Below, one piece after another: positions 9,600 to 36,455 of a stretch of 36,796 nucleotides of DNA. Under the pieces are notes generated by a model that was not told where the DNA came from, made no database searches, and saw only the letters and a list, made by a program, of their open reading frames with translations. Positions within the stretch are counted from its first letter, which is position 1. Every line of letters starts with the position of its first letter. The position numbers and the translations under genes are program-made. Origin of the DNA: Bacteroides sp. (lineage in GTDB: Bacteria; Bacteroidota; Bacteroidia; Bacteroidales; Bacteroidaceae); the NCBI GenBank assembly GCA_017471925.1, contig JAFURM010000039.1:1-36796 (forward strand). The letters run 5' to 3'.

Positions 9600-9627
9600 A
9601 AAGAAACTCATTAATATCCAAACATAC

Positions 9628-15585: not shown

Positions 15586-16560
15586 TTAATGCTGTTCCAC
15601 CATCTTGATGGTGCCGTCCTCGTTGTAGTAGAGGCGGTCCACACAAATGGAGCGCAACCAGTCGTGATTGGAGAGGGCGCTGTTGTGATAGAAGGCAAAC
15701 CACTCACCCTTGTACTCCACGATGGAGCCGTGGTTGGTGTAGCTGTCCGTAGGTTCCATGTAGATGCCCATGTTCTTCCAAGGGCCCAGCGGGCTATCGC
15801 TCATGGCATAGCGCATGCGGTTGTCTCCACTCACGCCATCCTTCCAGTTGTCGTCATGATTATCCGAGTAGGAGAGGTAGTACTTGCCGTTATACTTGTG
15901 CACCCAGGGGGCTTCGTGGAAGTCTTCCAATCCTTCGATGACCTGCATCTCGCCATCCAGCTCCATCATGTTGTCCTTCAGTTTACCGGCCATGCAACGT
16001 CCGCCGCCGCCATGATAGATGTAGGCCTGTCCGTCGTCGTCCAGGAAGACGCACGGATCAATCAGCGGTTCCAGTCCTTCGATGTAGCCCTGCACGGTGA
16101 AGTTGGCAGCCGGCTCCTTGCTGGTGGCTACGCCAATCTTCCACGAATCGTTCCAGCGCGAGTCGCTGGGGTGCGGAAAGTAGAAGTAATAGGTACCGTT
16201 CTTGTAGACGCAGTCGGGTGCCCACATGAAGCCTCCCTCGGGACGTCCCCACTCCACTTGTGAAGAGTTGAGAATTTCGCCGTGGTCGGTCCAGTTCACC
16301 ATGTCATCGGTGGAGAAGACGTGATAGCGGTCCATCAGGTCGCAACCGCGCGGCGGGTCAATGTCGTGCGAAGCATAGACATAGAGACGGCCGTCTTCCC
16401 AGACGTGTGCCGAGGGGTCGGCCGTGTACATGTGAGTGACAAACGGATTGGGGCCCAGGCTGTCAATACCGCCGGTCTCTGCTGCTGCCTGCTTGCCTTG
16501 TCCGCAGGAGCATACGCCCAACATCAAGGAGAGCGCAAAAGGTAAATAAGAGTAACGCAT
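15586..16560 (-). CDS. GH43-family glycoside hydrolase lipoprotein
   Basis: A 324-aa five-bladed beta-propeller enzyme of family GH43 (beta-xylosidase / alpha-L-arabinofuranosidase type). N-terminal lipoprotein signal with the likely cysteine at C19 (VCSC). The three catalytic carboxylates are visible: D48 (TADPSAHVW), D168 (LIDPCVFLDDDGQ) and E216 (DFHEAPWVHK); H278 in NHGSIVEYKG matches the central calcium histidine. The start at 16560 gives the signal peptide; the frame is open 61 codons upstream into the GH92 gene but has no signal there. It is the last gene of the PUL and nearly identical in many stretches to the GH43 at 21323. The sugar released (xylose or arabinose) cannot be told from sequence alone. 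Confidence 0.9.
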   Translation of the reverse strand: MRYSYLPFALSLMLGVCSCGQGKQAAAETGGIDSLGPNPFVTHMYTADPSAHVWEDGRLYVYASHDIDPPRGCDLMDRYHVFSTDDMVNWTDHGEILNSSQVEWGRPEGGFMWAPDCVYKNGTYYFYFPHPSDSRWNDSWKIGVATSKEPAANFTVQGYIEGLEPLIDPCVFLDDDGQAYIYHGGGGRCMAGKLKDNMMELDGEMQVIEGLEDFHEAPWVHKYNGKYYLSYSDNHDDNWKDGVSGDNRMRYAMSDSPLGPWKNMGIYMEPTDSYTNHGSIVEYKGEWFAFYHNSALSNHDWLRSICVDRLYYNEDGTIKMVEQH

Positions 16561-16616
16561 ATCGTTGAGAATTAATAATTGATAGTTTATAGTTGAATTT
16601 GAGGGGGGAAACGGGG

Positions 16617-18866
16617 TTAGTCCATTGAGGGGGGAACGGCATCGTCGGCAGCGCCCCAGGCTTTGTTGGGCGTATTGCCCATGACGAGCACCAGGGTACC
16701 TCCCTGCATCAGTTCGTCGTGGCTGAACCAGGGTTTGTTCCACTCCTTGCCGTTCAGCGTGGCCGACTGGATGTACTTGTTCTCGGCCGATGCGCCCTTA
16801 GCCTGTATCTCGAAGGTCTTGCCGTTGGCCATGCTGAGCTTGATGTTCTCGAACAGCGGGCTACCGATATTGTAGGCGGGGAAGCCGGGTGTCACGGGAT
16901 AGAAGCCCAGGGCAGAGAAGACCACAAACGAGGTCATGCCGCCCCCGTCTTCATCGCCGGGCATACCCATGAGGTCGTTGCGGAACCAGGTGGTGAGCAT
17001 CTGGCGGATGCGCTTCTGGGTCTTCCAGGGCTTGCCGGCATAGTTATAGAGGTAGGGCACGTGGAGCGACGGCTCGTTGGCCATGGAGAACTGTCCCACG
17101 TTGGCCGTATGGTCGGGAAGCTGGGAAAAGAACTCATACTTGCTGCGTCCCAAAGGCTCGCTGAAGGTGCGGTCCAGGTTGGCCACGAACTGCTCCTTGC
17201 CTCCCATCAGGCTGATTAGGTCGGCCACGTTGTGAGGCACGTCCCAGCGATACACCCATCCGTTGTTCTCGCCATAGAACTCACGGGCACCCATGCCGCC
17301 GGAGTAGCGGTAGTCGAAGGGTTCAATCCAGCGTCCGTTCTTGTCCTTGGGATGGAAGAAGGCGGTCTCGGCATTGTAGACGTTGCGGTAGTTGCGGGCA
17401 CACTGCTTGTAGTAGGCGGCCTCCTCGGTCAACCCCAGGTGTTCGGCAATGAGCGACAGGCACCACTGGTCATAGGCTGTTCCCAGGGTAACGGCAATGG
17501 GCTGACGCTTCTCAAAGCTGTGCACGTTGGGGTCGGTCTCGGCCTCACCCTGCTGCAGGGCGGGGATATAGCCATGCTCCTTGTAGAAGGCATCAATCCA
17601 TCCGGCCTCCTTGCCCGACCACGGTGCCAGCGTCTTCTCCTCAATGGCCTTGCGACAGGCTTCGAAAGCCTTCTTGGCATCCACGTCCAGGCCCTTCACC
17701 AGGGCATCGGCCACGGTGGCTACGGTGTGGTTGGAGTTCATGCGTCGGCTGTCGCCGGTCACTTCGGGGAAGGTGGGCATCCACATGTTGCCCATCTGCT
17801 CGGCCATGCGCAGGAAGGAGGCCAGGATGTCCTCTTCCACCTCGCGGTCCATGATGACACGCAGGGGATGGGCGGCACGATAGGTGTCCCAAATCCAGTC
17901 ATCGGTATAGAAGGGCGTACCTTCGTCTTCATGCACCTTACCGTCGAAGGCACTGAAGTAGCGGCCGTCCTCACTCATGCATATAGGGCGTTCGAAGGTG
18001 CGATAGTAAGACGAGTAGAAGAGCGTCTTGTCGTTATCGCTGCCGCCTGTAAGGGCGATGCGGCCCAGCGTCTCGTTCCAGATGTCACGGCCTTTGGCAG
18101 CCAGGGCCTTCACGTCATAGTCCTGCTGTTCGCGATAGAGGTTCTTCTTGGCCTGCTCTTCGCTGATGAACGACACACCATAGCGCAGGTGTACACTGCC
18201 CGTTCCGTCGGCATAGCGCCACACGGCACAGGCGTCACGTCCCTCTGCACTCTCCTTGGCGGCATTCAGTTTGCCGGCTTCCAGGATGCCGGCTTCGGCA
18301 GGCTGTTCCTGGGTTTCGATGTAGAGGTAGACATTGGTATTGTTGGGCAGCTTCTGATAGCCGCTGATGAAGCCCTCGCCCTGACGGATGGCACCATCGC
18401 GCGTGTTCACCAGCACGTAGGCCGGTTGGTCGGCCTCGAAGTCTATCTGATAGATGGCCGACTGATGGGACAGGGCATAAGTGGCCTTCATGCGGTTGTC
18501 GTTCAGGTCCACTTCAAAGGAGTAAGGCGTCAGGCGTTCGTTGTCATAGTTATAGGCCACGACGGGTTTCAGCTCGCTGCCTTGATAGGGGGTCAGGTTG
18601 AAGGCCGAGCGTTCGCGGTGGTTGGTCACGATGACGGGCAGGCCGTTCAGCAGTTCCGACGTGTAGTCGGCACGCTCGGGATAGACGCGCAGCATACTGT
18701 TGGGCAGCTGCACCGTGGGAAACGTGGGCACCAGCAGATGGCTGATGTTGCCGATATAGGGGTTCACATAGTCCACCGGTGACTTCTGTTCCACCGGCTG
18801 GCTTTCGCTACAGCTTCCCAGCAGGGAGGCTATGGCCACAGAGGCGAATAGACGGAATAGTTTCAT
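16617..18866 (-). CDS. GH92 alpha-mannosidase lipoprotein
   Basis: A 749-aa calcium-dependent exo-alpha-mannosidase of family GH92. Lipobox LGSC (C19). The N-terminal beta-sandwich begins VDYVNPYIGN, and the C-terminal (alpha/alpha)6 barrel holds the catalytic motifs: E533 in the ENNGWVYRW block (likely acid), NEPSLHVPYLYNYAGKPW starting at 597, and GMPGDEDGGGMTSFVVFS at 634-651, where D638 and D640 match the general-base pair described for BT3990. All key residues look intact. Linkage preference (alpha-1,2, -1,3, -1,4 or -1,6) is not predictable here. It lies 56 bases upstream of the terminal GH43, within the enzyme half of the PUL. Confidence 0.95.
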   Translation of the reverse strand: MKLFRLFASVAIASLLGSCSESQPVEQKSPVDYVNPYIGNISHLLVPTFPTVQLPNSMLRVYPERADYTSELLNGLPVIVTNHRERSAFNLTPYQGSELKPVVAYNYDNERLTPYSFEVDLNDNRMKATYALSHQSAIYQIDFEADQPAYVLVNTRDGAIRQGEGFISGYQKLPNNTNVYLYIETQEQPAEAGILEAGKLNAAKESAEGRDACAVWRYADGTGSVHLRYGVSFISEEQAKKNLYREQQDYDVKALAAKGRDIWNETLGRIALTGGSDNDKTLFYSSYYRTFERPICMSEDGRYFSAFDGKVHEDEGTPFYTDDWIWDTYRAAHPLRVIMDREVEEDILASFLRMAEQMGNMWMPTFPEVTGDSRRMNSNHTVATVADALVKGLDVDAKKAFEACRKAIEEKTLAPWSGKEAGWIDAFYKEHGYIPALQQGEAETDPNVHSFEKRQPIAVTLGTAYDQWCLSLIAEHLGLTEEAAYYKQCARNYRNVYNAETAFFHPKDKNGRWIEPFDYRYSGGMGAREFYGENNGWVYRWDVPHNVADLISLMGGKEQFVANLDRTFSEPLGRSKYEFFSQLPDHTANVGQFSMANEPSLHVPYLYNYAGKPWKTQKRIRQMLTTWFRNDLMGMPGDEDGGGMTSFVVFSALGFYPVTPGFPAYNIGSPLFENIKLSMANGKTFEIQAKGASAENKYIQSATLNGKEWNKPWFSHDELMQGGTLVLVMGNTPNKAWGAADDAVPPSMD

Positions 18867-18921
18867 GGGGTGATAGTTGGTAATTGATAATTGATAATTG
18901 ATAGTTAGCTTGTCAACTATT

Positions 18922-19587
18922 TTACTTTTTCTTAGGATGTTTCTTCAGGTAGTTGAACATCTCCAAGGCCATCAGGCAGGAGCCGGTGGCATCGGGATGC
19001 ACGCCGTCTCTCATCAGTTCGGGATGGGTGTCCAGCACGGGGTGCATGTTGATGTACTCCACCTTCATCTTCTTGGCGGCCTTGATGGTGGCCGGCGTCA
19101 CCTGCTCCACGATGACCTCGTCCCAGATGCCGTCGGGGTTCTTCTCAAACGACACGATGGGGGTCAGCAGGATGATGCGCGGCTTCGAGGGCAGTGCGGC
19201 AAAGAGGGCTATCATCTCGCAGGCATCGGCCACGAACTCGTCTAAGTAGGGACGGTTCACCGACTTGCTGTCGTTGCCGCCCAGGTCTATGAAGAGGATG
19301 TCGGGGTTGGAAGCCAGTGCCTCCTTCATGCGTCCCTTGGTCCAATAGGGGAAATCGCCCTTCTTCAGCATGGTGCTGCTGCTCACGCCATAGTTGATGA
19401 CCTCATAACCCGTGCCTAAGAGGCGGCCCAGCTGGGCGGGATAGCAGTCTGTCACGGGATTGGCCGTAGTGCCTCCCTCCGTGATGCTGGCACCGATGCA
19501 CACCACTCTCACGTTCCTCTTCTCCTGGCTACGGGCAATGCCCGTAACCGTCAGGAGGAGAATAAATAAGGTTATAATCTGTTTCAT
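18922..19587 (-). CDS. SGNH/GDSL-family secreted esterase
   Basis: A 221-aa SGNH hydrolase, probably a carbohydrate O-acetylesterase. The signal peptide MKQIITLFILLLTVTGIARS is of the signal-peptidase I type, so it is probably periplasmic. Catalytic blocks: S34 in GASITEGG (block I), G71-type turn in NYGVSSST (block II), N105 in LGGNDSK (block III), and D194/H197 in DGVHPDA (block V). The start at 19587 is chosen for the signal peptide. It begins 10 bases after the CBM6-GH43 stop, so the two are surely cotranscribed. In this PUL it would remove acetyl or other acyl groups that block the glycosidases. The substrate is inferred from context only. Confidence 0.85.
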   Translation of the reverse strand: MKQIITLFILLLTVTGIARSQEKRNVRVVCIGASITEGGTTANPVTDCYPAQLGRLLGTGYEVINYGVSSSTMLKKGDFPYWTKGRMKEALASNPDILFIDLGGNDSKSVNRPYLDEFVADACEMIALFAALPSKPRIILLTPIVSFEKNPDGIWDEVIVEQVTPATIKAAKKMKVEYINMHPVLDTHPELMRDGVHPDATGSCLMALEMFNYLKKHPKKK

Positions 19588-19597
19588 GAATATACGT

Positions 19598-21316
19598 TTA
19601 CTTGATTTTGTTTTCATCCCTTGTCTGCTGCACGATTTCCAGCGTGCCGTCGGCATTGACGGTCAGCTTGTCCACACACACGGAGCGCAGGTTGCCCTGT
19701 CCGGAGTAGTCGCCCGTGTGATAGAAGGCATACCACTCGCCCTTGTACTTCACGATGGAGCCGTGGTTGGTCTCCACACCGGTGGGCTTCATGTAGATGC
19801 CCAGGTCTTTCCAGGGACCCAGCGGAGAGTCTGAAACGGCATAGCGCATGTTGTTGCCGCCGTTGTCGGGACTGTTGTTGTCCGAATGCGACAGGTAGTA
19901 CTTGCCGTTGTACTTATGAATCCAGGTGGCTTCGTGGAAGTCGTGCAGACCGGTCATCCGCTTCACTTCGCCGTCCAGCTTGGTCCAGTCGTTCTTCTTC
20001 AGCTTGGCACCATAGCACTCGCCGCCTCCACCGTTGTAGATGTAGGGCTGGCCGTCGTCATCAATGAAGACGCAGGGGTCAATCTTGGAAGGCATACCCT
20101 CCACGTAGCCCACCACGGTGAACTCCTTGTCGGGATACTTGCTGACGGCAATGCCCACGCGCCAGGTCTTGTCGCGGTTGTTGGGGTCCGTGGGATGGGG
20201 GAAGTAGAAGTAGTAGGTCTCGTTCTCGGGATTATAGGCACAGTCGGGAGCCCACATGAATCCGTCCACGCCCCACCCGGCATGAAGCCTTACGGTAGCG
20301 GCGTTCAGGATTTCGCCGTGGTCGGTCCAGTTCACCATGTCCTCGGTAGAGAAGACGTGGTAGCGGTCCATACGGTCACAGCCCACGGCCGGTTCCATGT
20401 CGTGGGAGGCATAGACGTAGAGCACCTCTTTGCCGTTGATGTTCCACACGTGGGCGGAAGCATCGGCCGTGTAGAGCGGTCCCTTCACCCAGCTGTTGAA
20501 CATGGGCGATTCGAAGTCCACGAACAGGGGGTTCTTCATCGCCTTGGTCACGGGATAGCTGATGGAGGTGGCGGGGTCCTGCCATTCGCCGGTGCGTGTC
20601 AGGACAAACTTGTCCACGTTGCCCGGCGTGCTGGCATAGTACTTCAGCACGTGGGTACCCTTGGTCAGTTGGATGCCTTCGGCCGTCACCTTCTTCGTGA
20701 AGTCGGTCCATCCGCCCTGGGGCATCTCGATGCTGCGGGTCACGCCCCGGCCGTCCACCTCAAAGTAGAAGTAGCCTTCCGAGCCGTCGCCCTTCACGAT
20801 CCAGGTCTCTATGGCATAGCAGCCGGCCTCGGTCACATCGATGGTGTAGCACATCCACTCCTCGGGCTGCACGTCACCGATGTAATAGCCGCCCGAAGCA
20901 CCGCCGTCGCCACGCACGTCCACGTCATGGCTTCCACGGTAGCCGGCTTCCGCACCTTTACTGTCGCGTTCATAGTAGGCCATGTTGGCTGCGCCTTCAT
21001 CAAAGTCCTCGGCCTCCAGCGTGCCCGGCACCTGGTGGGGGCCTTTGTAGGGCGTACCCTTATAAGCCTTCAGGAAAGCCTCGGCATCATAGGTCATGTC
21101 ATGGTCATATTGGTAGGGACCGGTGGGCACGATGGGTTGGGTCGGTCCGTCCGGCTCATCGGGGGTGTCGGGGGTATCGGGAGTGTCCGGTTCATCGGGT
21201 TCCACCACTCCCGGAATCTCGTCATTGCCCCCGCCACATGCCGTCAGGGGGAATAGGGCAATGCTGCAGAAGATGCCGCACAACAAGGCCAGCAGACGTA
21301 AGTTCAGGTTCTTCAT
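19598..21316 (-). CDS. CBM6-GH43 multidomain lipoprotein
   Basis: A 572-aa surface-type enzyme. Lipobox LTAC (C27); a low-complexity Asp/Pro linker with DTP repeats at residues 40-56; a CBM6-like beta-sandwich at about 97-243 (VPGTLEAEDFDEG, GYYIGDVQPEEWMCYTIDV, THVLKYYASTPGNVDKFVL); and a C-terminal GH43 propeller from about 275. Catalytic carboxylates D285 (TADASAHVW), D413 (KIDPCVFIDDDGQ) and E462 (DFHEATWIHK) are all present. It is clearly related to the two short GH43 proteins on either side but more diverged, and it alone has a binding module. It is probably the polymer-facing GH43, with the short ones acting on oligosaccharides. Stop to next start is 10 bases. Confidence 0.9.
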   Translation of the reverse strand: MKNLNLRLLALLCGIFCSIALFPLTACGGGNDEIPGVVEPDEPDTPDTPDTPDEPDGPTQPIVPTGPYQYDHDMTYDAEAFLKAYKGTPYKGPHQVPGTLEAEDFDEGAANMAYYERDSKGAEAGYRGSHDVDVRGDGGASGGYYIGDVQPEEWMCYTIDVTEAGCYAIETWIVKGDGSEGYFYFEVDGRGVTRSIEMPQGGWTDFTKKVTAEGIQLTKGTHVLKYYASTPGNVDKFVLTRTGEWQDPATSISYPVTKAMKNPLFVDFESPMFNSWVKGPLYTADASAHVWNINGKEVLYVYASHDMEPAVGCDRMDRYHVFSTEDMVNWTDHGEILNAATVRLHAGWGVDGFMWAPDCAYNPENETYYFYFPHPTDPNNRDKTWRVGIAVSKYPDKEFTVVGYVEGMPSKIDPCVFIDDDGQPYIYNGGGGECYGAKLKKNDWTKLDGEVKRMTGLHDFHEATWIHKYNGKYYLSHSDNNSPDNGGNNMRYAVSDSPLGPWKDLGIYMKPTGVETNHGSIVKYKGEWYAFYHTGDYSGQGNLRSVCVDKLTVNADGTLEIVQQTRDENKIK

Positions 21317-21322
21317 AGGGCT

Positions 21323-22303
21323 TTACTTTTGGGTTTGTTGAACTGGTTGTTTGGTCTGCTGTACCATCTGGATGGTACCGTCTTCGTTATAGTAGAGCTT
21401 ATCCACGCAGATGGAGCGCAGGTTGCCGTGACCGGAGAGGGCCTTGTTGTGATAGAAGGCAAACCATTCGCCCTTGTACTCTACGATGGAGCCATGGCTG
21501 GTGTCGCATCCGGTGGGATTGAGGTAAACACCCTGATGCTTCCACGGGCCATAAGGTGAGGTACTGGTGGCATAGTGCAGACGGTTCTGCTGGCTGCCGT
21601 CTTCCATGATATGGTTGTCGGCATACGACAGGTAGTAGAGGTCGCCTCTCTTGTGTACCCAGGTGGCTTCGTGGAAGTCTTCCAGTCCCTCCATGGGGCG
21701 CAAAGGTTCTGCCAGTTCCATCATGTTCTCCTTCAGCTTGGCCGCTACGCAGCGTCCGCCGCCGCCATAGTAGAAGTAGGCCTGACCGTCATCGTCCACG
21801 AATACACAGGGGTCAATCATGGCGAAGCAGTCGTCCAGTCCCTCGATGTAGCCCTGCACGGTGAAGTTGGAGGCCGGTTCCTTGCTGGTGGCTATGCCCA
21901 CCTCCCAGGTGTTGTTCCAGTCCGTACCGCTGGGATGGGGGAAGTAGAAGTAGTAGGTTCCATCCTTGTAGGCACAGTCGGGTGCCCACATGAATCCGCC
22001 TTCGGGACGTCCCCAGGGCACCTGTGAGGAGTTGAGGATTTCACCGTGGTCGGTCCAGTTCTGCATGTCGTCGGTGGAGAAGACGTGATAGCGGTCCATC
22101 AGGTCGCAGCCGCGCGGCGGGTCAATGTCGTGGGAGGCATAGACATAGAGACGGCCGTCCTGCCAGACGTGTGCCGAGGGGTCGGCCGTGTACATGTGGG
22201 TGATAAACGGGTTCGGACCTACGGTCAACGATTCTTGTTTCTCGCTTTTGCAGCCCTGCATGGTCACTGCCAACAAGGCCAATGTAATCAATGAATTTCT
22301 CAT
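21323..22303 (-). CDS. GH43-family glycoside hydrolase lipoprotein (near duplicate)
   Basis: A 326-aa single-domain GH43 enzyme with lipobox MQGC (C18) and catalytic carboxylates D41 (TADPSAHVW), D164 (MIDPCVFVDDDGQ) and E212 (DFHEATWVHK). It is a close paralogue of the GH43 at 15586-16560, with long stretches that are almost identical in both protein and DNA. Small differences around the active site (for example GLDDCFAMIDP against GLEPLIDP, and PTGCDTSHGS against PTDSYTNHGS) could shift specificity. The C-terminus is Gln-rich (VQQTKQPVQQTQK). Only 6 bases separate its stop from the CBM6-GH43 start. Confidence 0.9.
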   Translation of the reverse strand: MRNSLITLALLAVTMQGCKSEKQESLTVGPNPFITHMYTADPSAHVWQDGRLYVYASHDIDPPRGCDLMDRYHVFSTDDMQNWTDHGEILNSSQVPWGRPEGGFMWAPDCAYKDGTYYFYFPHPSGTDWNNTWEVGIATSKEPASNFTVQGYIEGLDDCFAMIDPCVFVDDDGQAYFYYGGGGRCVAAKLKENMMELAEPLRPMEGLEDFHEATWVHKRGDLYYLSYADNHIMEDGSQQNRLHYATSTSPYGPWKHQGVYLNPTGCDTSHGSIVEYKGEWFAFYHNKALSGHGNLRSICVDKLYYNEDGTIQMVQQTKQPVQQTQK

Positions 22304-22354
22304 TATAGCTCTTTTTTAATGAATACTTGAAATATGGTTAGGAATATTGTTGGT

Positions 22355-23614
22355 TCAAGGTTGGTTCCACAGCCGCTTGATGGTCTCCTCCTGCGAGTAG
22401 CCCAGGGGGCAGGCTTCGCTCCGGGTGTTGGCGCGATAGTTACCTTCGGTCTCGTTGGGACAGGTTATCATGCGGCATCCGGGCATCTCCAAGTGGCCGT
22501 TCGGGTCGGTCTCCTTTACCCAGCGGTAGGCATACTCCAGCCACTGGTTGCGATAGGCTTCGGGCTGTTGGGCCAGCCAGGAGATTTCGTCCCATCCCCA
22601 CACGAAGTGGGAGTTCAGGTCGGCCACGTTGGGTTGCGGGCCACGGCCGTAGTTGTCAAACTCCACTAAGAAGGGCAGGTGTTCGCAGCTCCATCCGCTG
22701 GGCGACAGACATCCTTCGCTCTTGCCGTAGAGGGCATCCAGATGGTTCACGGCCAACTCGGCCTTATAAGGCTCTTCGGGTATCTCCTTGATGCGCAGGG
22801 GGAAGGAGTTGAAGTCCAGCAGGCTCACGCCATCTTTCACCATGCCGCCATAAGGAGTATGGGCATCGAGGATGACCCACTGCCTGCGGGCATGGGTGCG
22901 GGCATAGCCGCGTATCTTGCCGATAACCTGGGCCCATGCCTCACGCTTCGGGTCGTTCATGCCAATCAGTTCTATCTGCCCCAGGTGGAACGCCTCACAC
23001 CCCACATTGATGTAGGAGCCGGCCAGGTAGTAGAACCAGAGTTGGGTCTCCGTGCGACTGATGTCGGGCACGCTGCTTCCCTTGTGCCAGTGGTCCACCA
23101 TCACACCCTCCTCGTTCAGCATGGCCTCGTAGGAGAAGTTGCGCTCCTCCACCGGCAGTCCGAAGCCCTCAAAGACCCATGCGGGAATCTTCACCTCCTC
23201 CACTTGCGGGGTGATGACTTCGAAGAGGCAACCTTGGATGATGATTTCAGGGTCATAGGCATGGAGGTCGCGGGCAATGCTGTCAGCCGTGTGCCAGAAG
23301 TCAGGCTCGGTGAGGCGGCGTTCCCCGCCCCAGCGGTAGAGGGCACGCCCCAGGAACTTGGCACCCAGTTCCTTCACCATGCGCACGTCGTCAGCATGGT
23401 AGGAGTAGATGCGCCGGCCTTCGGGTCGTTCGGGAATCAGCAGGTAGACCATCGTGATGGAACGATCCAGGTAGTTCTCCAGCGCTTCGCGCGAGATGCC
23501 GTTGGCGTCCATGTGATAGTCCGCAGGCGCTTGTTGCGGTTGGCAGCCGGTGCAGAGCAGTGCCCCTATCGCCAGGCTGCCTATATAGTTCAACAGTTGT
23601 TTCATACGTTTCAT
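22355..23614 (-). CDS. Lipoprotein of unknown family, possible TIM-barrel glycoside hydrolase
   Basis: I do not recognise a named family. The 419-aa protein has a lipoprotein signal (likely C24 in CTGC); a start at M4 (23605) is also possible. The body alternates predicted strands and helices as a TIM barrel would: SITMVYLLIP, AKFLGRALYRWGG, PEIIIQGCLFEVIT, GSYINVGCEAFHLGQIEL, QWVILDAHTPYGG, LPFLVEFDNYG and HFVWGWDEISW. Acidic residues sit at strand ends: E207/E215, D250, E318/D320 and D342/E343, with many aromatic residues, as in carbohydrate-active sites. It lies between GH38 and GH43 genes in the same transcript direction. Most likely a hydrolase of the same polysaccharide; a sugar-binding role is the alternative. 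Confidence 0.6.
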   Translation of the reverse strand: MKRMKQLLNYIGSLAIGALLCTGCQPQQAPADYHMDANGISREALENYLDRSITMVYLLIPERPEGRRIYSYHADDVRMVKELGAKFLGRALYRWGGERRLTEPDFWHTADSIARDLHAYDPEIIIQGCLFEVITPQVEEVKIPAWVFEGFGLPVEERNFSYEAMLNEEGVMVDHWHKGSSVPDISRTETQLWFYYLAGSYINVGCEAFHLGQIELIGMNDPKREAWAQVIGKIRGYARTHARRQWVILDAHTPYGGMVKDGVSLLDFNSFPLRIKEIPEEPYKAELAVNHLDALYGKSEGCLSPSGWSCEHLPFLVEFDNYGRGPQPNVADLNSHFVWGWDEISWLAQQPEAYRNQWLEYAYRWVKETDPNGHLEMPGCRMITCPNETEGNYRANTRSEACPLGYSQEETIKRLWNQP

Positions 23615-23676
23615 TTTGTTCGGTTCTCTATTTCTTCATGCTGCTTTCTCAGGCTGTTCCGCCTCGATGGGCGACG

Positions 23677-26901: not shown

Positions 26902-26912
26902 GGTGATTTTTA

Positions 26913-26962
26913 GAAAAGAGGGTGTGCCAAAATCTCAATGATTCGATTTTTGACGCACCCTC
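26913..26962 (-). terminator. Terminator-like hairpin between the GH99-like and GH38 genes
   Basis: Bases 26918-26932 pair with 26948-26962 at 14 of 15 positions, and on the minus strand the stem is followed by TTTTC. The stem core GAGGGTG...CACACCCTC resembles the hairpin at 34618-34662. It lies in the 76-bp gap between two same-strand genes, so it probably reduces rather than abolishes read-through. Confidence 0.7.
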
Positions 26963-26977
26963 ACATGAATCAATCAA

Positions 26978-28522: not shown

Positions 28523-28545
28523 AGCCTAATCTTTATCAAGTTATT

Positions 28546-28592
28546 CAAGAAAAGCCGGGAGGAGAAACAGGAAAGCCTATTCCTCTCCCGGC
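28546..28592 (-). terminator. Hairpin between the DUF3823 and GH99-like genes
   Basis: GCCGGGAG (28554-28561) pairs with CTCCCGGC (28585-28592); on the minus strand the stem is followed by TTTTCTTG. The 112-bp gap holds nothing else visible. It separates the binding/transport genes from the first enzyme gene. Confidence 0.65.
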
Positions 28593-28634
28593 CATTCATC
28601 TAATACCAATCTTTTTTACCTTTTCTAATAATAC

Positions 28635-29369
28635 TTATTCAGCCTTAGGAATTTCAATCTTTACCACTTCCGTATAGTTGTACTTCTGGAAAGTATCATC
28701 CACTCTGACACCCATACGTACAAAGTAGGTATATTCAGGCTTTACCCAAACCATAAAGGAATAGGTCTTACTCAAGCCATCTTCTTCTTTATCTACTTTG
28801 TCCCACACTTTATTGATATTTGTCTTATATTTAGCCAACGTAGAATAATGGCTAATGCAGTTTGCTGCGCCACAGAATTGATTCAGGCTAAGGAACGGAC
28901 GAATATCCAAAATTCGCGGCAAGCCCTCCTCTATCGGAGCATAGAAACGACAGGACACTTGTATAGAATCGGGATAAGCTTGTTCCACCTTGAAATCGGT
29001 CAATTTCAGGTAAGGCGTTACCTCAAAATTCTGGGTCAACTTGCTTCCCAGACCTGCACGGATTGTGTCGGCGGGCCACCAAGCTCCTTCAGGCACCATA
29101 TCATACGTACCCTTGAAAAGTTTGGTATTGTTGTATGTTCCATCCTGCTTCACGGGAATATCCTGCGGATCAGGATTCTCCTTGAAGCTCTTTTCCCATA
29201 TACGGACATGACATTCACCCTGGTCAGCCAAGACATTCTCGCCCGTAGTAAGGTCTATGATGCGTCCGGTGAGGTGTGCATCCGGTGCATCGAAGTTATC
29301 CACCTCCATGCATGATGTCACCAAGAGTGCCGATGCACCTACAAACAGACTATAAATTAACTTTTTCAT
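28635..29369 (-). CDS. DUF3823-type lipoprotein, putative surface glycan-binding protein
   Basis: A 244-aa lipoprotein with lipobox VTSC (C20). The mature protein begins MEVDNFDAPDAHLTGRIIDL, the usual opening of the DUF3823 type, followed by a first beta-domain (carboxypeptidase-regulatory-like strands, KQDGTYNNTKLFKGTYDM) and a second strand-rich domain (SIQVSCRFYAPIEEG, YSFMVWVKPEYTYFVRMGV). Such proteins commonly follow SusD and are thought to bind or hold the glycan at the surface. The ATG at 29369 is chosen for the signal peptide; an upstream ATG 16 codons earlier would overlap the SusD stop. No catalytic residues are evident. Confidence 0.78.
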   Translation of the reverse strand: MKKLIYSLFVGASALLVTSCMEVDNFDAPDAHLTGRIIDLTTGENVLADQGECHVRIWEKSFKENPDPQDIPVKQDGTYNNTKLFKGTYDMVPEGAWWPADTIRAGLGSKLTQNFEVTPYLKLTDFKVEQAYPDSIQVSCRFYAPIEEGLPRILDIRPFLSLNQFCGAANCISHYSTLAKYKTNINKVWDKVDKEEDGLSKTYSFMVWVKPEYTYFVRMGVRVDDTFQKYNYTEVVKIEIPKAE

Positions 29370-29403
29370 ACTATGATTACTATTTAATTCTGTATTAATA
29401 CGA

Positions 29404-31383
29404 TTAATAACCATCATTGCGGATTACATTCGGGTTCTTGCTCAATTCACCGCCGGGCATCTGCTCGTAGTACCATCTCTTCTCGAATGTCACCTTACGG
29501 CCTTCACGCTCTACTTCGTTCAGGTAGATATACTTGTTCTCTGAAACCACATAGTAGGGAAGCAGGGTGTGGGCAAACTTTCCATCCATAAACATGACGT
29601 CAGCCACTCTCCAACGACGGAGGTCGAAGAGACGATGGTTCTCGTAGCAAAGTTCACGGGCACGCTCGTCGCGGATGTACTGCAGGTTCTCATCGATTTC
29701 GAAACCATATACTTCCATACCCAGGTCGGCAGGAGCATCCACCATCTGGTGTTCAGTGGCACCGGCACGGCGACGCAACTCGTTCACATGTTCAAAGGCT
29801 TCCTTCTTCAGGTTGTCGTTATTTGTAATAAGGCCCAATTCATAGGCTGCCTCGGCCCAGTTACAGAGCACTTCACCATAACGGAACACCTTCCAGGACT
29901 GTGTACTACCAAAGAGTACACGATCTGCTGCAGCACCGTTGTAGTTCACATACTTACGGATGAAAGCACCTGTACGGGTGTAGCCCTCGTCACCGGTTCC
30001 TTCGCAAAGGCCATACTTACCATTGATTTTCATACCGTCGGTATCTACAGAAGAAGGCTGTGCCGCTCTTACACGATAGGCATTGGTATAATCATTCGTA
30101 CTGGCTTGAACCTCCTCTGTACCATCGGCAGCGGTACCGGGATAGGATTTGTAATATCCGGCCTGGATATCCAGCACCTCACCGGAAACCGACTCGGTCA
30201 TACCGGGGAAGTAGAAATTGGCCCGGCAACGCGGTTCCATTTCATCGGTATCCCAGATGTCTTCCACCCGATCGAAGCGTACCGGATTGCCGTTTTCATC
30301 GGTAATGGCGGGCATTTCATAAAGCCCCATCAGTTCCCAGGTAGGCTGAAGAGCTGCACCTACGTTGCTGGCAAGGCCGGTACCGATAGGCAGTACCATA
30401 GTGTCCCAACAGTGGAACAAACTGGTACCTGACGGTGTAACCGTATTCGGACCATACTGCTTCACAAAGATGTCTTCCACACCGGCTAAGTCACTGATGA
30501 AGACTTCCGTATAAGCCTTCTCTTTGTCTGCACCATCATGCAGTTTGAACCCAGCATCCTGCAGGAACTTGCAAGCATCATAAGCATACTGGAAGAACTC
30601 CTGAGCATGAACAGGATCCATAATCATCAAACCGGCATCTACAGCAGGACCGGTAGTCGTGATATAGCTGCTGTACTTGGCAATAGAACCGGCATACAAC
30701 ATGGCACGGCTCATCAGAGCGGCAGCCGCATAGCGATTGGCACGGGTTACGTTCTTCACATCCGTAGAGCCGTTTTCCATGGCGAACTTCAGGTCTTCAT
30801 AGATAAACTTCCAGGACTCATACTCCGTGTTACGCGGCAGCTGGAGTTCTTCAACCGGAGCTTTCGGGTCGAGCACTCTGTCCACCAAAGGCACACCACC
30901 GTAACGCTTCACAATACCGAAGTAGTAGTAGGCACGCAGAAAGTGAGCTTCGGCCATCAAGGCATTATACTCTGATTCCTTGTAATTATCCTTATAGTTA
31001 GGAAGTTGCTCAATCATGTTGTTGATGTCGCGGATGCGGTCATAGGGCCAGTAGCCCCAGCTGTCACCGTAGGATGTACCACGTCCCACAGCCTCCATAG
31101 CCGCACTGGCGGCACTACTCTTCTGTGCCTGCCACTGGTTGCCACTGTGCCACCCACCGGCATTCACCGTGGCATAACCACGCATGTCACCGCTTTGGCC
31201 ATAGTTGAAGTCCTCAATGGGGCAGTCCTGATAGACCAGCGCCAAGTACTTCTTGACACCATTGTCGGAGGAGAGCAACACATTCTCGTAGAGCAAGCCC
31301 TTGGGTTCCAGTTCCATCTCCTCACAGGCGGTCACTGTCAGGCCCAACGCGGCTGCTGCAAATATGTATTTTAATGTCTTCAT
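29404..31383 (-). CDS. SusD/RagB-family outer-membrane nutrient-binding lipoprotein
   Basis: The 659-aa glycan-binding lid of the SusCD importer. Lipobox VTAC (C20). N-terminal SusD-like region with ELEPKGLLYENVLLSSDNGV; tetratricopeptide-like helices including ALMAEAHFLRAYYYFG and KRYGGVPLVD; and the C-terminal RagB/SusD block with NELRRRAGATEH, RDERARELCYENHRLFDLRRW. Family members usually have 500-650 residues, so this is a large example. It starts 18 bases after the SusC stop. It would sit on the SusC barrel and deliver oligosaccharides. Confidence 0.96.
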   Translation of the reverse strand: MKTLKYIFAAAALGLTVTACEEMELEPKGLLYENVLLSSDNGVKKYLALVYQDCPIEDFNYGQSGDMRGYATVNAGGWHSGNQWQAQKSSAASAAMEAVGRGTSYGDSWGYWPYDRIRDINNMIEQLPNYKDNYKESEYNALMAEAHFLRAYYYFGIVKRYGGVPLVDRVLDPKAPVEELQLPRNTEYESWKFIYEDLKFAMENGSTDVKNVTRANRYAAAALMSRAMLYAGSIAKYSSYITTTGPAVDAGLMIMDPVHAQEFFQYAYDACKFLQDAGFKLHDGADKEKAYTEVFISDLAGVEDIFVKQYGPNTVTPSGTSLFHCWDTMVLPIGTGLASNVGAALQPTWELMGLYEMPAITDENGNPVRFDRVEDIWDTDEMEPRCRANFYFPGMTESVSGEVLDIQAGYYKSYPGTAADGTEEVQASTNDYTNAYRVRAAQPSSVDTDGMKINGKYGLCEGTGDEGYTRTGAFIRKYVNYNGAAADRVLFGSTQSWKVFRYGEVLCNWAEAAYELGLITNNDNLKKEAFEHVNELRRRAGATEHQMVDAPADLGMEVYGFEIDENLQYIRDERARELCYENHRLFDLRRWRVADVMFMDGKFAHTLLPYYVVSENKYIYLNEVEREGRKVTFEKRWYYEQMPGGELSKNPNVIRNDGY

Positions 31384-31401
31384 ATATTCTATCCTTTCGT
31401 A

Positions 31402-34400
31402 TTAGAATTTTAATGTTGCACCGATGTTAAACGTACGGTTCACCGGATAACGGTAGAACAGTGATGAGTCGGCGTTACCGGAGTTGGCACTACCCTGTGC
31501 ACCGGGGCGTTCGGGGTCTATGTTGTCCAGTCCTGTAATGGTCAGCAGGTTATAGGCATTCACATAGACACGCAGGTTCTTGATACCGGCTTTGCTCACC
31601 CATTGTTTGGGCAGGGTGTAACCCAGTTCAAGGGTCTTCAGACGCAGGTAAGAACTGTTCTTGATGCCAGTAGAACCTGTATTGAAGCTGTGACCGGTAG
31701 CGGGATAGAGACCGGATACCCATTCTGTATTGGGATTCCAGGGGTCATCCGTAATGCTCACGGTGTGCCAACGATCCTTGTAGATGTCCAAAGCGGCACC
31801 ACCGTTGAAGGGACCTACTTCGGTGAACACCTCGTCATAGGAGTTATAGACACCGGCCGAGCCTTGCCAGTTCATAGAAAGGTCAACACCTCTCCATGCG
31901 GCACCCAAAGTGATACCGTAGTTGAATACCGGCAGGTTGAATGAAGCCACGGGATGGCGGTCATTGTCATTTACGATACCGTCGCCGTTCCAGTCTTCAT
32001 ACCAGTAGTCACCGGGGAGAGTGCCCTGACCATAGTTGGAACCGGTAGTACCGTGATAACGGATTTGTTCCCAATTGCTGAAACGTCCACCCTCTTCATA
32101 GGCAAACCAGATGTCCTTGTTACGACCAGAGACATTGGTGCGATACCAATTGGCCATAGAATTGCCTGCAGGGCTATCCAGATGGAAATCCCAACGGTTC
32201 TTGGTTGCGGAAACCTGCGCATTTACCCAATAGTCAATATCAAGCACCCTGTTGCGGTGTCCCAAAGAGACTTCCCAACCGAAGGTCTGGTCTTTCTCTA
32301 TGTTCTCCTGAGGCAGAGTAGCACCTACGATATCAGGAACTGTGGCCTGTGCTCTTTCTAACAGTCCGACACGTTTACGCTTGAAGAGTTCAAACGTACC
32401 ACTCAACTTACCGTTCCACAAGTCGAAGTCCAAACCGAGGTTATAGGTCTTAGAGGTATACCAAGTTTTGTCCGGATTAGGAACAGCAGTAGCGGCCACA
32501 CCTGTTACATAGGCACCATTGTAATAGTAACCAATCTTATCTTTGTTGATTTCATAAGCAACGGCAGTTTCCGGATAGGTCGTGGCCGTACCGTCATCAC
32601 CCATCTCGCCGTAAGAGGCACGCAGTTTCAGGTTGGTCATGAAGGGAACCAACTCCTTCATAAAGTCTTCTTCACTGATACGCCAACCGGCAGAAACACC
32701 AGGGAAGAAGCCCCAACGGCCATTGCTCGGATAGCTGGAAGAACCATCGTAACGGAAAGTGAAGTCTACCATGTAGCGACCTTTCCAGTCGTAGTTCAAA
32801 CGTCCCAAAATGGACTGGCGGGTCTTGTCACCGGCACCATACATTGAACCGACCTGCTCTTCATCCTCACCATAGATAAGGTATTCACCGGACAGATTCA
32901 TCACACGCTGTGCATAGAAGCTATCCCAGTTGCTATACTGTTCCTCAAACAGGACAAATGCACCCACATTGTGATCACCGAACTTATTGGCATAGTTCAG
33001 AGAGAGCTGCATCATGGTATTGTAGCTGGGGTTGGTAGTACGCTTCAGGTAGCTGTCGGAGTTACGGGCATAAGAGGCCAATGTGCCATCAGCGTTGGCA
33101 CTGTAAAGATTATAGGCACGCTTGTACTCCGTATTGTTAGAGGCTGCATAGTCGTAGCTATAGAAAGCTTTTGCACTCAGTCCCTTTACACCGGGGATGT
33201 CATAGGTCAACGCCAACGAGCCGTTGAAGTTGTTGCCCTTTTCACGGCGATAACCGGTCAAATCACTGTTGATAACAGCAACGGGGTTGTCGCTTTCCAG
33301 GAATTCCGTGGTATAAGCGGGCAAGCTATGGTCACCGTTCACATAAGCGATGGCTGTAGGCTTGTAGGTCCATGCCTTCTTGTAGACTGCCCAAATGTCG
33401 GTAAAGGGTTGGTTCTTCTCATCAATATAGCCACTCAACTGTACACTGGCCTTCAAACGCTTGGTAATTTGTGCGTCAATGTTGCTACGGAAGTTCCAAC
33501 GTTTGTAGTTCAAGGAACCGCTCTTGTAAGAACCGTTCTGCTTCATGTAACCGATGTTGAAGAAGTATTGAATCTTCTCGGAACCACCGTTCATGCTGAC
33601 GTTATACTGTTCCTGGGGAACATTGCTGTCGAAGAGCTCATCGGTCCAGTTGGTACCACGGTTGCCCGTAGAGCTATAGCCCAGGATTTGATCCCAACGA
33701 TAAGCCGGGTCGGAACGAACGGCATAGTTCTCGTTGAAACGATTCCAGGTTTTCTCATTCATCAACAGCATGTGGTCTGTAGCTGTAGCCGTTTCGGGAA
33801 TATAAAGGAAGTTCTGCCAGCCGTAGTTGGCGGAGAAGGTGATGTCGAACTTACCACCGGTATTGTCACCACGCTTGGAAGTAACCAAAATTACACCATT
33901 AGCAGCACGCACACCATAGATGGCAGCCGAGGCATCCTTCAATACAGAAACCGATTCGATTTCATTGGCATCCATACGGGAGAAGTAACCCTTGTCACGG
34001 GGAATACCGTCTACCACGATCAAAGGCTCACCCATACCACGGATATCAATGGCATTGTCATATTCACCGGGTTGAGCACTGCGCTGGGTGATACGCACAC
34101 CGGGGATTTTACCGGAAAGCATGTTTACCACGTTCTCGTTCTTGGTCACGGCAATCTCCTTGCTGGTCACAGCAGAAACGGCACCGGTCAGGGTGGCCTT
34201 CTTCTGCGTACCGTAACCTACCACAACAACCTCTTCCAAAGTGGTGTTGTCCTCTTCCAGCGTAACCTTCAGGTCGGTCTTGGCTGCCGAAACGATGGCA
34301 TCGGCATAACCGATGAAGGTAATCTTCAGCTTATCCTTGGCAGAAGCTTCAATCTGGAATTTACCATCAATGTCGGTAATGGTACCACGTGACGTGCCTA

Positions 34401-34578
34401 CCACCGTGACATTGGCTCCGATGACTGTCTCGCCTGTCGTGTCATAAACGACACCGCGCACCGTGCGGTTCTGCGCCGATAGCGGCAAGGCCATCAGGAG
34501 GCAAAGAAGCGCAATCATCAACGACTTGCCACAGGCAAATGCACTTCTTGCTATATTGTTAGAATTATATTGTTCCAT
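31402..34578 (-). CDS. SusC/RagA-family TonB-dependent transporter
   Basis: The 1058-aa outer-membrane importer. Signal peptide with a charged N-terminal extension and cut after LSAQ-type site near residue 35; a carboxypeptidase-regulatory-like domain (about 38-107: RGVVYDTTGETVIGANV, ITDIDGKFQI); a TonB-box-type segment EEVVVVGYGTQKK (115-127); the plug (NMLSGKIPGVRI, DIRGMGEPLIVVDGIPR, SVLKDASAAIYGVRAANGV); and a 22-strand type barrel ending in a terminal phenylalanine (NIGATLKF). There is no N-terminal STN domain, so it does not look like a direct sensor for an ECF anti-sigma system. It sits second in the PUL transcript, after a hairpin. Confidence 0.97.
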   Translation of the reverse strand: MEQYNSNNIARSAFACGKSLMIALLCLLMALPLSAQNRTVRGVVYDTTGETVIGANVTVVGTSRGTITDIDGKFQIEASAKDKLKITFIGYADAIVSAAKTDLKVTLEEDNTTLEEVVVVGYGTQKKATLTGAVSAVTSKEIAVTKNENVVNMLSGKIPGVRITQRSAQPGEYDNAIDIRGMGEPLIVVDGIPRDKGYFSRMDANEIESVSVLKDASAAIYGVRAANGVILVTSKRGDNTGGKFDITFSANYGWQNFLYIPETATATDHMLLMNEKTWNRFNENYAVRSDPAYRWDQILGYSSTGNRGTNWTDELFDSNVPQEQYNVSMNGGSEKIQYFFNIGYMKQNGSYKSGSLNYKRWNFRSNIDAQITKRLKASVQLSGYIDEKNQPFTDIWAVYKKAWTYKPTAIAYVNGDHSLPAYTTEFLESDNPVAVINSDLTGYRREKGNNFNGSLALTYDIPGVKGLSAKAFYSYDYAASNNTEYKRAYNLYSANADGTLASYARNSDSYLKRTTNPSYNTMMQLSLNYANKFGDHNVGAFVLFEEQYSNWDSFYAQRVMNLSGEYLIYGEDEEQVGSMYGAGDKTRQSILGRLNYDWKGRYMVDFTFRYDGSSSYPSNGRWGFFPGVSAGWRISEEDFMKELVPFMTNLKLRASYGEMGDDGTATTYPETAVAYEINKDKIGYYYNGAYVTGVAATAVPNPDKTWYTSKTYNLGLDFDLWNGKLSGTFELFKRKRVGLLERAQATVPDIVGATLPQENIEKDQTFGWEVSLGHRNRVLDIDYWVNAQVSATKNRWDFHLDSPAGNSMANWYRTNVSGRNKDIWFAYEEGGRFSNWEQIRYHGTTGSNYGQGTLPGDYWYEDWNGDGIVNDNDRHPVASFNLPVFNYGITLGAAWRGVDLSMNWQGSAGVYNSYDEVFTEVGPFNGGAALDIYKDRWHTVSITDDPWNPNTEWVSGLYPATGHSFNTGSTGIKNSSYLRLKTLELGYTLPKQWVSKAGIKNLRVYVNAYNLLTITGLDNIDPERPGAQGSANSGNADSSLFYRYPVNRTFNIGATLKF

Positions 34579-34617
34579 GTTTAGATTTTCTGTTGATTAA
34601 AAATCTGATAGATGTAT

Positions 34618-34662
34618 AAGAGGTGTGCCAACCGCGATTGTACACACTTGGCACAACCTCTT
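34618..34662 (-). terminator. Hairpin between the 586-aa lipoprotein gene and susC
   Basis: AAGAGGTGTGCCAA (34618-34631) pairs with TTGGCACAACCTCTT (34648-34662) with one bulged base. It lies in the 116-bp gap before susC. On the minus strand only a moderate T tract (ATTTTT) follows after 16 bases, while on the + strand the stem is followed directly by TTTTATTTT. It resembles the hairpin at 26913-26962. No TAnnTTTG box is seen between it and susC. Confidence 0.6.
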
Positions 34663-34694
34663 TTATTTTGAATTCGTTTTCCGACAGGAAGAGA

Positions 34695-36455
34695 TTAGTC
34701 TTTCTTCGGAGCCGGCATCTTAGCCTCAGCCGGAGCAAGACGACGGTTGAAGAAGGCCAGGACGAACTTATCATCGCCAGAAACCAAAGTCTTCACGCCG
34801 TAAGCATATTCAAAGGCTGCAACGATAGCCATACGCAAGCCATAGCCAGTATAGGTATCGGGCAGAGAGATTACACCGGTCTTCTCATCAATAGTCACAT
34901 TCCAAGAAGCCACATTGCTGTAGAAGCCAACAGGATCGTTTACATAGTCATTGGGTTGTCCCATCCAGAAGTCATAGCCATAGCCCTCACCTGCGGAATA
35001 TTCCTTACCGTTTTCATCAATGTACTTGCCATCGGTAGCCACCGTTTCGGGAACATAGATAGCAAAGCCACGATAGAACCAGAAGATACCACGGCCCTTG
35101 CCTACATACTTCTTGCCTTCGTCAGTGAGCTCCAGACGACCGTCATTATTGAAGATAAGCAAATCATCACCGTTGCTTACAGAAGCGCTAGCCCATACAT
35201 CGAAGAACTTATCCTGATTGTTGTGGATAATCGGGAATTCAGTCGTAAAGTTCTGGAAAGCAGCCTGAATGTCAATAGTCTGTGCACCCATTTGGAGATA
35301 CTTCTCACGGCCACCCCATTCACACTCTGAACCGCCTGTAAACATGGTGAAGTCTACATCAGCCAAAGCATCGGAAATCTTCACATAAATCTTAGCCTTA
35401 GTTACATTGTCAGCAACGACATAAACCAAGAAACCGGGTTGTTCAGCATTGTCATTGAAGCTGGTGCCTGGGTTAGCATAGAAGTCCCAAGAACCGTCAG
35501 CGGCCAAGCTCTTGTCGAGGAGTTCCCACTTTTCCTGAGCCTTACCACCGGGCTGTTCGGCATGGGGAGCAACCTGGAACTGTGCATTTTCAGGGAATTG
35601 ATCGAAAAGATCCTTGAAGTTCATCGGAGAGAGGAGCTTCAGACCGTCGATAGTCATAGAGCAGAAACCATTAGCGTCGACTTCTGTGGGCTGGTATTCG
35701 GCCTTGATAGCATAGTCACCAATCTTTTCTGACTCAAAATAGAAGTCTTCAGCAACCTCTACAGTAAAGTAGTTGGAGGTAATCACTGTACCGCTGCAGT
35801 TTACTTGCAGTGCTACAGCGTAACTTGCACCTGCTACAGCCTTAATACCCTTCAAAGGTACTGAAAGATAACCTTCACTTTCTGTCACGTCACCGGCAAT
35901 AACAAACTCGTTGTTGCTGCCAACACTGCGAGTCTTCAATTCAACAACGTCTACAATTGAGAAAGAAGCCTTGCTCAAATCAGAGATAGCAGGTCTGGCC
36001 AAGAATTTAACGGTGGCACCTTCGTTGCCTACGATTACTTTACCGTCGGCATATTCAGGAACATAAACGAGAGAGTTTACAGTGGCACCTGTAGGAATAG
36101 TATATGATGTACCATCTACAGTGATAGTGAAAGAACCTTCACCCTGCTCTACAGTTACAGCAGAACCACCAGCAGTAGAACCACCGGTAGAAGCCTTGAC
36201 ATTAGTATCAATAACGATAGTGGTACCATCACTCAGTTTCAATGTCCATACACCATCTTTGTTTTCTGCACTTACAACAGAAGAACCTGTCGTCAGTGCC
36301 TTGCCCAACTGATCTTTCAGATCGGCATAAGCGCCTTCGAGTACGGCAACTCGGCTTTCGAGTTCGTCAGTGTCATCACCACAAGCGGTGAACGTTCCAG
36401 TAGAAAGAACCAACGCGGCTCCGCAAAGGAGCACATTCCAAAATTGTTTGTTCAT
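34695..36455 (-). CDS. Coiled-coil surface lipoprotein, putative glycan-binding protein
   Basis: A 586-aa lipoprotein with lipobox FTAC (C25) followed by GDDTDE. Residues about 29-56 form a short coiled coil (ELESRVAVLEGAYADLKDQL), as in proteins named DUF4988 or 'PL29 lyase N-terminal domain'. The following beta-hairpin DGVWTLKLSDGTTIVI and the glycine/serine/threonine linker lead into several strand-rich domains (residues about 100-580). No catalytic motif is recognised. The C-terminus is Ala/Pro/Lys-rich (RRLAPAEAKMPAPKKD). It is the promoter-proximal gene of the PUL, ahead of susC, where a binding protein is unusual. The coiled coil could hold it away from the membrane or drive oligomerisation. 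Function unproven. Confidence 0.65.
   Translation of the reverse strand: MNKQFWNVLLCGAALVLSTGTFTACGDDTDELESRVAVLEGAYADLKDQLGKALTTGSSVVSAENKDGVWTLKLSDGTTIVIDTNVKASTGGSTAGGSAVTVEQGEGSFTITVDGTSYTIPTGATVNSLVYVPEYADGKVIVGNEGATVKFLARPAISDLSKASFSIVDVVELKTRSVGSNNEFVIAGDVTESEGYLSVPLKGIKAVAGASYAVALQVNCSGTVITSNYFTVEVAEDFYFESEKIGDYAIKAEYQPTEVDANGFCSMTIDGLKLLSPMNFKDLFDQFPENAQFQVAPHAEQPGGKAQEKWELLDKSLAADGSWDFYANPGTSFNDNAEQPGFLVYVVADNVTKAKIYVKISDALADVDFTMFTGGSECEWGGREKYLQMGAQTIDIQAAFQNFTTEFPIIHNNQDKFFDVWASASVSNGDDLLIFNNDGRLELTDEGKKYVGKGRGIFWFYRGFAIYVPETVATDGKYIDENGKEYSAGEGYGYDFWMGQPNDYVNDPVGFYSNVASWNVTIDEKTGVISLPDTYTGYGLRMAIVAAFEYAYGVKTLVSGDDKFVLAFFNRRLAPAEAKMPAPKKD

Follow-up and report, generated by a model that had tools for sequence, protein, structure and literature searches.

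Endo-acting enzymes on alpha-1,3-mannan are represented by PbSulf1-GH195, characterised by assay as an endo-alpha-1,3-mannanase; a homologue that has likewise been tested is only 36% identical to it, and the published pathway for this glycan also includes an enzyme of glycoside hydrolase (GH) family GH92 (PMC13063451). The polysaccharide of Tremella has a backbone of 1,3-linked alpha-mannose that carries xylose, glucuronic acid and fucose (PMC11858309). No described locus for glucuronoxylomannan or xylomannan, the mannan of jelly mushrooms, was found in searches of the open-licence literature of PubMed Central. The present analysis concerns a cluster of 12 consecutive genes at positions 15586-36455 of a stretch of Bacteroides sp. 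DNA (assembly GCA_017471925.1, contig JAFURM010000039.1). This stretch, hereafter the window, is one entire contig of 36,796 bases, belonging to a genome of 2.87 Mb in 59 contigs that is 89% complete. The balance of evidence tips towards the 12 genes being a polysaccharide utilisation locus (PUL) whose substrate is an alpha-1,3-mannan with O-acetyl groups and xylose substituents, similar to the xylomannans or glucuronoxylomannans of fungi. If so, the locus would explain gut bacterial use of jelly-mushroom mannan, and the known range of GH195-type endo-alpha-1,3-mannanases, so far acting on sulfated diatom mannan, would come to include a mannan that is unsulfated and bears xylose. An earlier note on this DNA had proposed an O-acylated alpha-mannan with pentose branches, such as that of Tremella- or Cryptococcus-type fungi; the substrate type is supported and can be sharpened to an alpha-1,3-mannan, while a fungal source is something that we still infer.

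Predicted enzymes for backbone, branches and acetyl groups

The GH99-like lipoprotein GH99L (26978-28522, 514 aa) is, judging from its sequence, probably a GH195-type endo-alpha-1,3-mannanase and the backbone cutter of the system. It combines a barrel fold with a GH99 profile match, which is partial (residues 340-436 only) but, with 37.2 bits, exceeds the threshold of 33. The catalytic motif of GH99 has been given as EW[H/G]E (PMC11025385), where GH99L has E-I-D-E within the stretch FDEIDEG; the GH99 motif itself is therefore absent, although the two Glu residues are spaced as in EW[H/G]E. At the same site, 17 aligned relatives of GH99L have EIDE, EVDE, EVNE, EMDE, EYDE or EYNE. GH99L shares 38-40% identity over aligned columns (BLAST 33-35%, E 1.7e-67 and 1.9e-70) with the GH domain of two flavobacterial proteins, L075_1 and L076_1, whose order of sulfatase, GH99-like domain and type IX secretion system domain matches the architecture of PbSulf1-GH195. 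This homology and the tie in architecture lend support to the view of the earlier note that the GH99-like enzyme cuts the backbone.

The GH92 alpha-mannosidase lipoprotein (16617-18866, 749 aa; PF07971, 511.8 bits) keeps the catalytic residues of its family (acid Glu, base Asp), aligning with 2wvx/2wvy at the Glu of YGENNGW and over GDED. Determinant motifs for alpha-1,2 activity in GH92 have been described (PMC12858847), and both are missing here, with Ser-Gln and Pro-Asn at the aligned positions; they are also absent from all three aligned gut orthologs. An alpha-1,3-mannan backbone is thus probable because of three things together: the homology of GH99L to GH195, a GH92 lacking alpha-1,2 motifs, and the GH99L-GH92 and SGNH-GH43 fusions described below. 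The GH38 alpha-mannosidase (23677-26901, 1074 aa), which has the N-terminal, middle and C-terminal domains (PF01074, PF09261, PF07748 and PF17677), is nearest to Ams1 and other alpha-mannosidases in the PDB, giving little information on linkage.

Removal of pentose by the three GH43 lipoproteins, also foreseen in the earlier note, is supported by their closest structures. These are GH43a (21323-22303, 326 aa; PF04616, 136.4 bits), a protein of 572 aa with an N-terminal CBM6-like region (19598-21316; PF04616 at residues 300-558, 114.5 bits) and GH43c (15586-16560, with the open reading frame (ORF) listed to 16743; PF04616, 146.4 bits). All three translations contain TAD[PA]S, IDPC and FHEA[TP], positions which we take to be the Asp/Asp/Glu triad of GH43. 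For each of the three, the top four PDB matches include chains titled xylosidase or xylosidase/arabinofuranosidase, although the single best match carries another title in two of them (5a8c, 5glk): GH43c is closest to 5a8c, 5glk and 3qed, and GH43a to 5glk followed by beta-xylosidases. The PDB neighbours of the GH43s thus cover both xylosidase and arabinofuranosidase activities. The carbohydrate-binding module (CBM) that had been assigned to one GH43 is probable, in that residues 100-210 of 19598-21316 resemble residues 343-455 of 2y8k, titled 'carbohydrate binding family 6' (phmmer, E 2.6e-9), but no Pfam CBM6 match was listed for this protein at E 0.001.

O-acylation of the substrate is supported by the SGNH/GDSL esterase (18922-19587, with the ORF listed to 19656; PF13472, 68.1 bits). 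Its similarity is to the C-terminal portion of the AxeA1 model (E 1.8e-50), at 171.6 bits, with the equivalog cut-off of 700 lying far above, and in Mediterranea its counterpart is fused to a GH43. Its GASITEG and DGVHPD are presumably the motifs of an SGNH esterase. The listed starts of the GH43c and esterase ORFs are probably too early, and the starts at 16560 and 19587, respectively, are preferred because signal or lipoprotein peptides begin there.

Several observations weigh against an acetylated, xylosylated alpha-1,3-mannan. The link to GH195 is indirect, as it runs through L075_1 and L076_1, which match in architecture, and not through the characterised GH195 sequences themselves; in these two proteins the Pfam GH99 match is at or below threshold (30.0 and 33.7 bits). 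The structure model of GH99L is of low confidence (pLDDT, the predicted local distance difference test, 62.3), and behind GH99 in its comparison, GH5 beta-mannanases score about equal to GH71. Missing alpha-1,2 motifs in GH92 are no proof of alpha-1,3 specificity, and GH43 and GH38 are both polyspecific families. No beta-glucuronidase was recognised in the window locus. Among the relatives, GH31, GH30 and beta-helix proteins are present that would be superfluous for a plain xylomannan, and in the stretch from Bacteroides oleiciplenus no SGNH gene was recognised; its position is occupied by a protein of 488 aa that matches alpha/beta-hydrolase below threshold.

Organisation, relatives and rival substrates

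All 12 genes lie on the minus strand and are transcribed from 36455 towards 15586, with mostly short gaps (-127 to 116 bases between successive ORFs as listed; ORFs were called mechanically as the longest non-overlapping frames of at least 90 or 120 aa). The cluster is marked as a PUL by its SusC/SusD gene pair, which is co-directional with the genes for carbohydrate-active enzymes. The first gene encodes a lipoprotein of 586 aa (34695-36455), a probable surface glycan-binding protein with a weak, sub-threshold DUF4988 match (PF16378, 23.9 bits against 30) and with relatives adjoining SusC in three other loci (L028, L030 and L012; 46-52% identity). It is followed by a SusC-type TonB-dependent transporter (31402-34578, 1058 aa, with Plug and carboxypeptidase-regulatory-like domains), 75-76% identical to its counterparts in L009, L010 and L012, by a SusD-type binding lipoprotein (29404-31383, 659 aa; PF07980, 132.8 bits; PF14322, 80.5 bits), and by a DUF3823 lipoprotein (28635-29417; PF12866, PF18003), a second probable surface glycan-binding protein. 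Acidic residues behind the lipobox Cys, which we take to be a surface export signal, are found in GH99L, the CBM6-GH43 and lipoprotein 34695-36455. Only 341 bases separate the first gene of the cluster from the contig end at 36796, so that neither the upstream boundary of the locus nor a possible regulator is in view. ORFs and Pfam bore out the GH92, GH38, GH99-like, three GH43, SGNH, SusC/SusD and binding-lipoprotein genes named in the earlier note, which apparently omitted the gene at 22355-23614.

Three other genomes share most of these genes at 46-83% protein identity: B. oleiciplenus, an uncultured Bacteroides and a metagenome-assembled genome of Mediterranea. A chance neighbourhood is ruled out by this recurrence. 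In B. oleiciplenus YIT 12058 the genes for SusC, SusD, DUF3823, GH99L, GH38, the 22355-23614 homologue, GH43a, CBM6-GH43 and GH92 stand in the same order (57-79% identity), with a second GH99L inserted between the 22355-23614 homologue and GH43a. The set is flanked by genes for GH2, GH3, GH30, GH31 and GH95, for a GH43 that carries an F5/8-type C domain, and for what BLAST identifies as a third GH99L; the GH30 and second GH3 of this locus were scanned in the near-identical copies of L010. In the uncultured Bacteroides the end of the locus directly adjoins proB; uppS, bamA, a pair of ompH-like genes and murI precede it, an arrangement shared with the window at 65-86% identity. In B. oleiciplenus some 8 kb, containing other genes, separate proB from the locus.

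The Mediterranea stretch (52-83% identity) has DUF4988-type, SusC, SusD, DUF3823, GH99L, 22355-23614-type and GH43a genes, followed by a single ORF of 1160 aa in which GH99L and GH92 are fused; upstream lies a single ORF of 533 aa fusing SGNH and GH43. These fusions suggest that GH99L may act jointly with GH92, and the SGNH enzyme with GH43. No GH38 was seen in the Mediterranea stretch, and GH38 is therefore not considered part of the core. Draconibacterium and Galbibacter have related, larger loci, and the larger relatives contain extra GH95, GH3 and GH2 genes. While the window genes alone would cover mannose, pentose and acetyl groups, these additional families could serve for fucose and other branches. 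A nearby protein of 859-914 aa in the relatives, with Kelch matches in the two that were scanned by Pfam, is, we infer, a regulator. Beside GH43 genes in Draconibacterium (L011:6850-8172) there is a neutral-ceramidase-like protein (sub-threshold Pfam), with relatives in L014 and in a Verrucomicrobiales locus, L017.

The rest of the genome bears on what the locus lacks. The earlier note had remarked on the absence of GH76 and of GH88/105/115/67 and had taken it to argue for little uronic acid in the substrate, which is possible, or for helpers elsewhere; no GH76 match was found in the 89%-complete genome, and possible helpers do exist. Contig C52 holds GH3, GH92, GH99L and a 948-aa beta-helix protein together at 2066-10880 (within L043, 1-19000), and the pathway may therefore be split over two loci. 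The GH99L of this cluster is 66-67% identical to the copies of Draconibacterium and of genome G230, and its beta-helix protein 68-69% identical to proteins of those loci. The genome also contains four GH92, three GH95-profile matches, one GH115 and twelve GH88/105-profile rows, two of them within one frame.

In the pathway proposed, the mannan chain would be bound at the cell surface by lipoprotein 34695-36455, the DUF3823 protein and SusD, and its alpha-1,3-mannan backbone would be cleaved by GH99L at exposed stretches, with the CBM6-GH43 lipoprotein trimming pentose outside the cell. Fragments would then be imported by SusC/SusD into the periplasm, where the SGNH enzyme would take off acetyl groups, xylose (or arabinose) would be released by the two other GH43s, and mannose would be removed from the non-reducing end by GH92 and GH38. 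A further glycosidic cut may be made by the barrel protein 22355-23614, and the C52 cluster (GH99L, GH92, GH3 and the beta-helix protein) may assist.

Other substrates can be fitted to parts of this evidence. Kiwi and ghatti gums have an alternating backbone of glucuronic acid and alpha-mannose with branches of arabinose, galactose and fucose. On such a plant glucuronomannan gum the GH43s would be arabinofuranosidases and GH99L would cut mannosyl-glucuronic acid bonds, for which the bifunctional arabinofuranosidases among the PDB chains near the GH43s would be apt, as would the extra GH95, GH2, GH3 and GH31 of the B. oleiciplenus relative; however, the GH195-type homology favours alpha-1,3-mannan and no uronidase or lyase was recognised by Pfam in the window locus, leaving a gum unlikely. 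An alpha-1,3-mannan of algae, xylosylated or in part sulfated, such as the xylomannan of red algae or the mannan of diatoms, obtained via the diet, is judged unlikely to a similar degree, although relatives of the locus occur in Draconibacterium and Galbibacter, which are of marine habit. GH195 is known from diatom-mannan degraders, but the pathway as published uses two sulfatases (PMC13063451) and Pfam found none in the 12 window genes or in the scanned genes of the B. oleiciplenus locus.

A fungal galactomannan, with the GH43s as galactofuranosidases, would draw on the polyspecificity of GH43 and on the mention of galactofuranose on fungal mannan (PMC10154615). Since every one of the GH43s has xylosidases within its best PDB matches, and such a glycan would leave the acetyl-esterase-like SGNH without an evident function, this substrate is highly improbable. 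The GH92 and GH38 genes would also be at home in an ordinary yeast-mannan or plant N-glycan locus, to which both are common (PMC10154615), but no GH76 was found in the 89%-complete genome, Pfam matches of the 12 genes include no peptide N-glycosidase (PNGase), GH18, GH20 or GH29, and the GH92 is without alpha-1,2 motifs; this is the least probable of the four alternatives. The acetylated, xylose-bearing alpha-1,3-mannan thus continues to be preferred.

The barrel protein 22355-23614

The lipoprotein of 419 aa encoded at 22355-23614 had no meaningful match in Pfam, NCBIfam or the PDB by single sequence, and a Pfam search over the 18 members of an alignment (A1), together with a PDB profile search, returned only noise. 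A1 contains the window protein and homologues from 17 of 19 loci; L025 was excluded for its split frame and L027 because its match covers 79 residues, and L019, L020 and L023 entered by their matching part only. The structure model is a (beta/alpha)8-type barrel of middling confidence (pLDDT 75.3; predicted template modelling score, pTM, 0.79), with stretches under pLDDT 50. It resembles many glycosidase families with none standing out (7-15% identity among the matches listed). Assignment to GH168, GH114, GH27/36 or GH13 is unsupported, as the Foldseek and VIA lists look typical of a generic barrel, and remote membership of the GH99/GH71 group is likewise unsupported, the profile comparison with GH99L giving a probability of 0.2%. 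Adding to A1 all seven matches from other genomes of the order, two of them trimmed to the C-terminal 440 residues, gives 25 sequences with 69 invariant positions, 17 of which are Asp or Glu. Considering the barrel model, the invariant acidic residues, the lack of family matches and the fusions described below, 22355-23614 is a candidate new glycosidase family, although it possibly belongs to a CAZy family for which there is no Pfam or NCBIfam model.

The 19 loci with a homologue come from a pattern-limited scan of a genome collection, in which 28 stretches matched a pattern, and the relatives span Bacteroidota, Verrucomicrobiota, Planctomycetota and Lentisphaerota (at least four phyla, by record title). 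In single ORFs the barrel is fused to GH99 (L019), to GH95 (L023) and to a GH87-type, alpha-1,3-glucanase-like beta-helix (L002, within L036); in the GH99 domain of L019, a pattern search for motifs resembling EW[H/G]E or DYGE found none. In the Bacteroidales locus L036 (5719-12145), a GH43-GH95 fusion of 1173 aa stands beside the beta-helix-barrel fusion of 982 aa, with GH99L, GH3, GH2 and GH43a nearby. A carbamoyltransferase gene lies inside the Galbibacter locus (L022:8166-9965), directly upstream of the homologue.

Within the order, the gene was found in 8 of 393 genomes, that of the window included. Its co-occurrence with GH99L is weak (3/8 carriers vs 19/385 others, p 0.007; 2/7 vs 19/385, p 0.049, without the window's own genome), at thresholds of E up to 1e-3 for the gene and 1e-20 for GH99-like, with the 393 genomes taken as the same draw in both searches. 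No PUL-type neighbour was found by BLAST against PUL proteins in the stretches covered from four of the seven other genomes (L037, L038, L041 and L042, with L041 only 3.5 kb long). Of the 19 loci, 11 showed neither an alpha-mannosidase nor a GH99-type gene in the stretch covered, several of these stretches being short and not every ORF scanned by Pfam. Homologues where no PUL gene is seen therefore argue against a role tied to one substrate. In L038, L041 and L042, from one genus, the homologue adjoins a conserved gene which, judged by eye, resembles those of sirtuins.

If the reading of the locus is right, 22355-23614 would be a named and testable candidate for a new glycosidase family. The bolder combined proposal, that it founds a (beta/alpha)8 family over four phyla cutting decorated alpha-1,3-mannan and that the locus is the first gut glucuronoxylomannan-type system with a GH195-type enzyme on an unsulfated backbone, is advanced tentatively, as possible but short of probable.

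Comparison with described systems

Among the closest counterparts is the locus for sulfated alpha-1,3-mannan in Polaribacter sp. Hel1_33_78 and Ochrovirga pacifica, which likewise pairs an endo-acting, GH99-related enzyme (GH195) with GH92 (PMC13063451). That pathway has two sulfatases, whereas none was recognised in the 12 window genes, which instead include three GH43s, an esterase, GH38 and the barrel protein. The yeast alpha-mannan loci of B. thetaiotaomicron have in common with the window a GH99-fold surface enzyme, GH92 and GH38, but use GH76 and GH125, while the window genome has no GH76 match and GH99L differs in its catalytic motif (PMC10154615). The alpha-mannan locus of Salegentibacter sp. 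Hel_I_6 resembles the window in combining GH92 with GH43, which weakens the premise of the earlier note that alpha-mannan loci lack GH43; it differs in the presence of GH76 and GH125 and in having no GH99 homolog and one GH43 only (PMC9213526).

In the plant N-glycan system of Bacteroides massiliensis, a GH92 alpha-1,3-mannosidase and a beta-1,2-xylosidase are encoded over several loci, much as proposed here, although the xylosidase is a GH3, a PNGase is involved, and the text describing it does not mention GH43 (PMC9522356). The GH71/99-like PmGH99 of Prevotella melaninogenica is also a bacterial GH99-fold protein far from the characterised GH99 enzymes; it has a DYGE motif where GH99L has EIDE, is encoded beside GH87 and GH97, and is described as inactive on yeast cells (PMC13421300).

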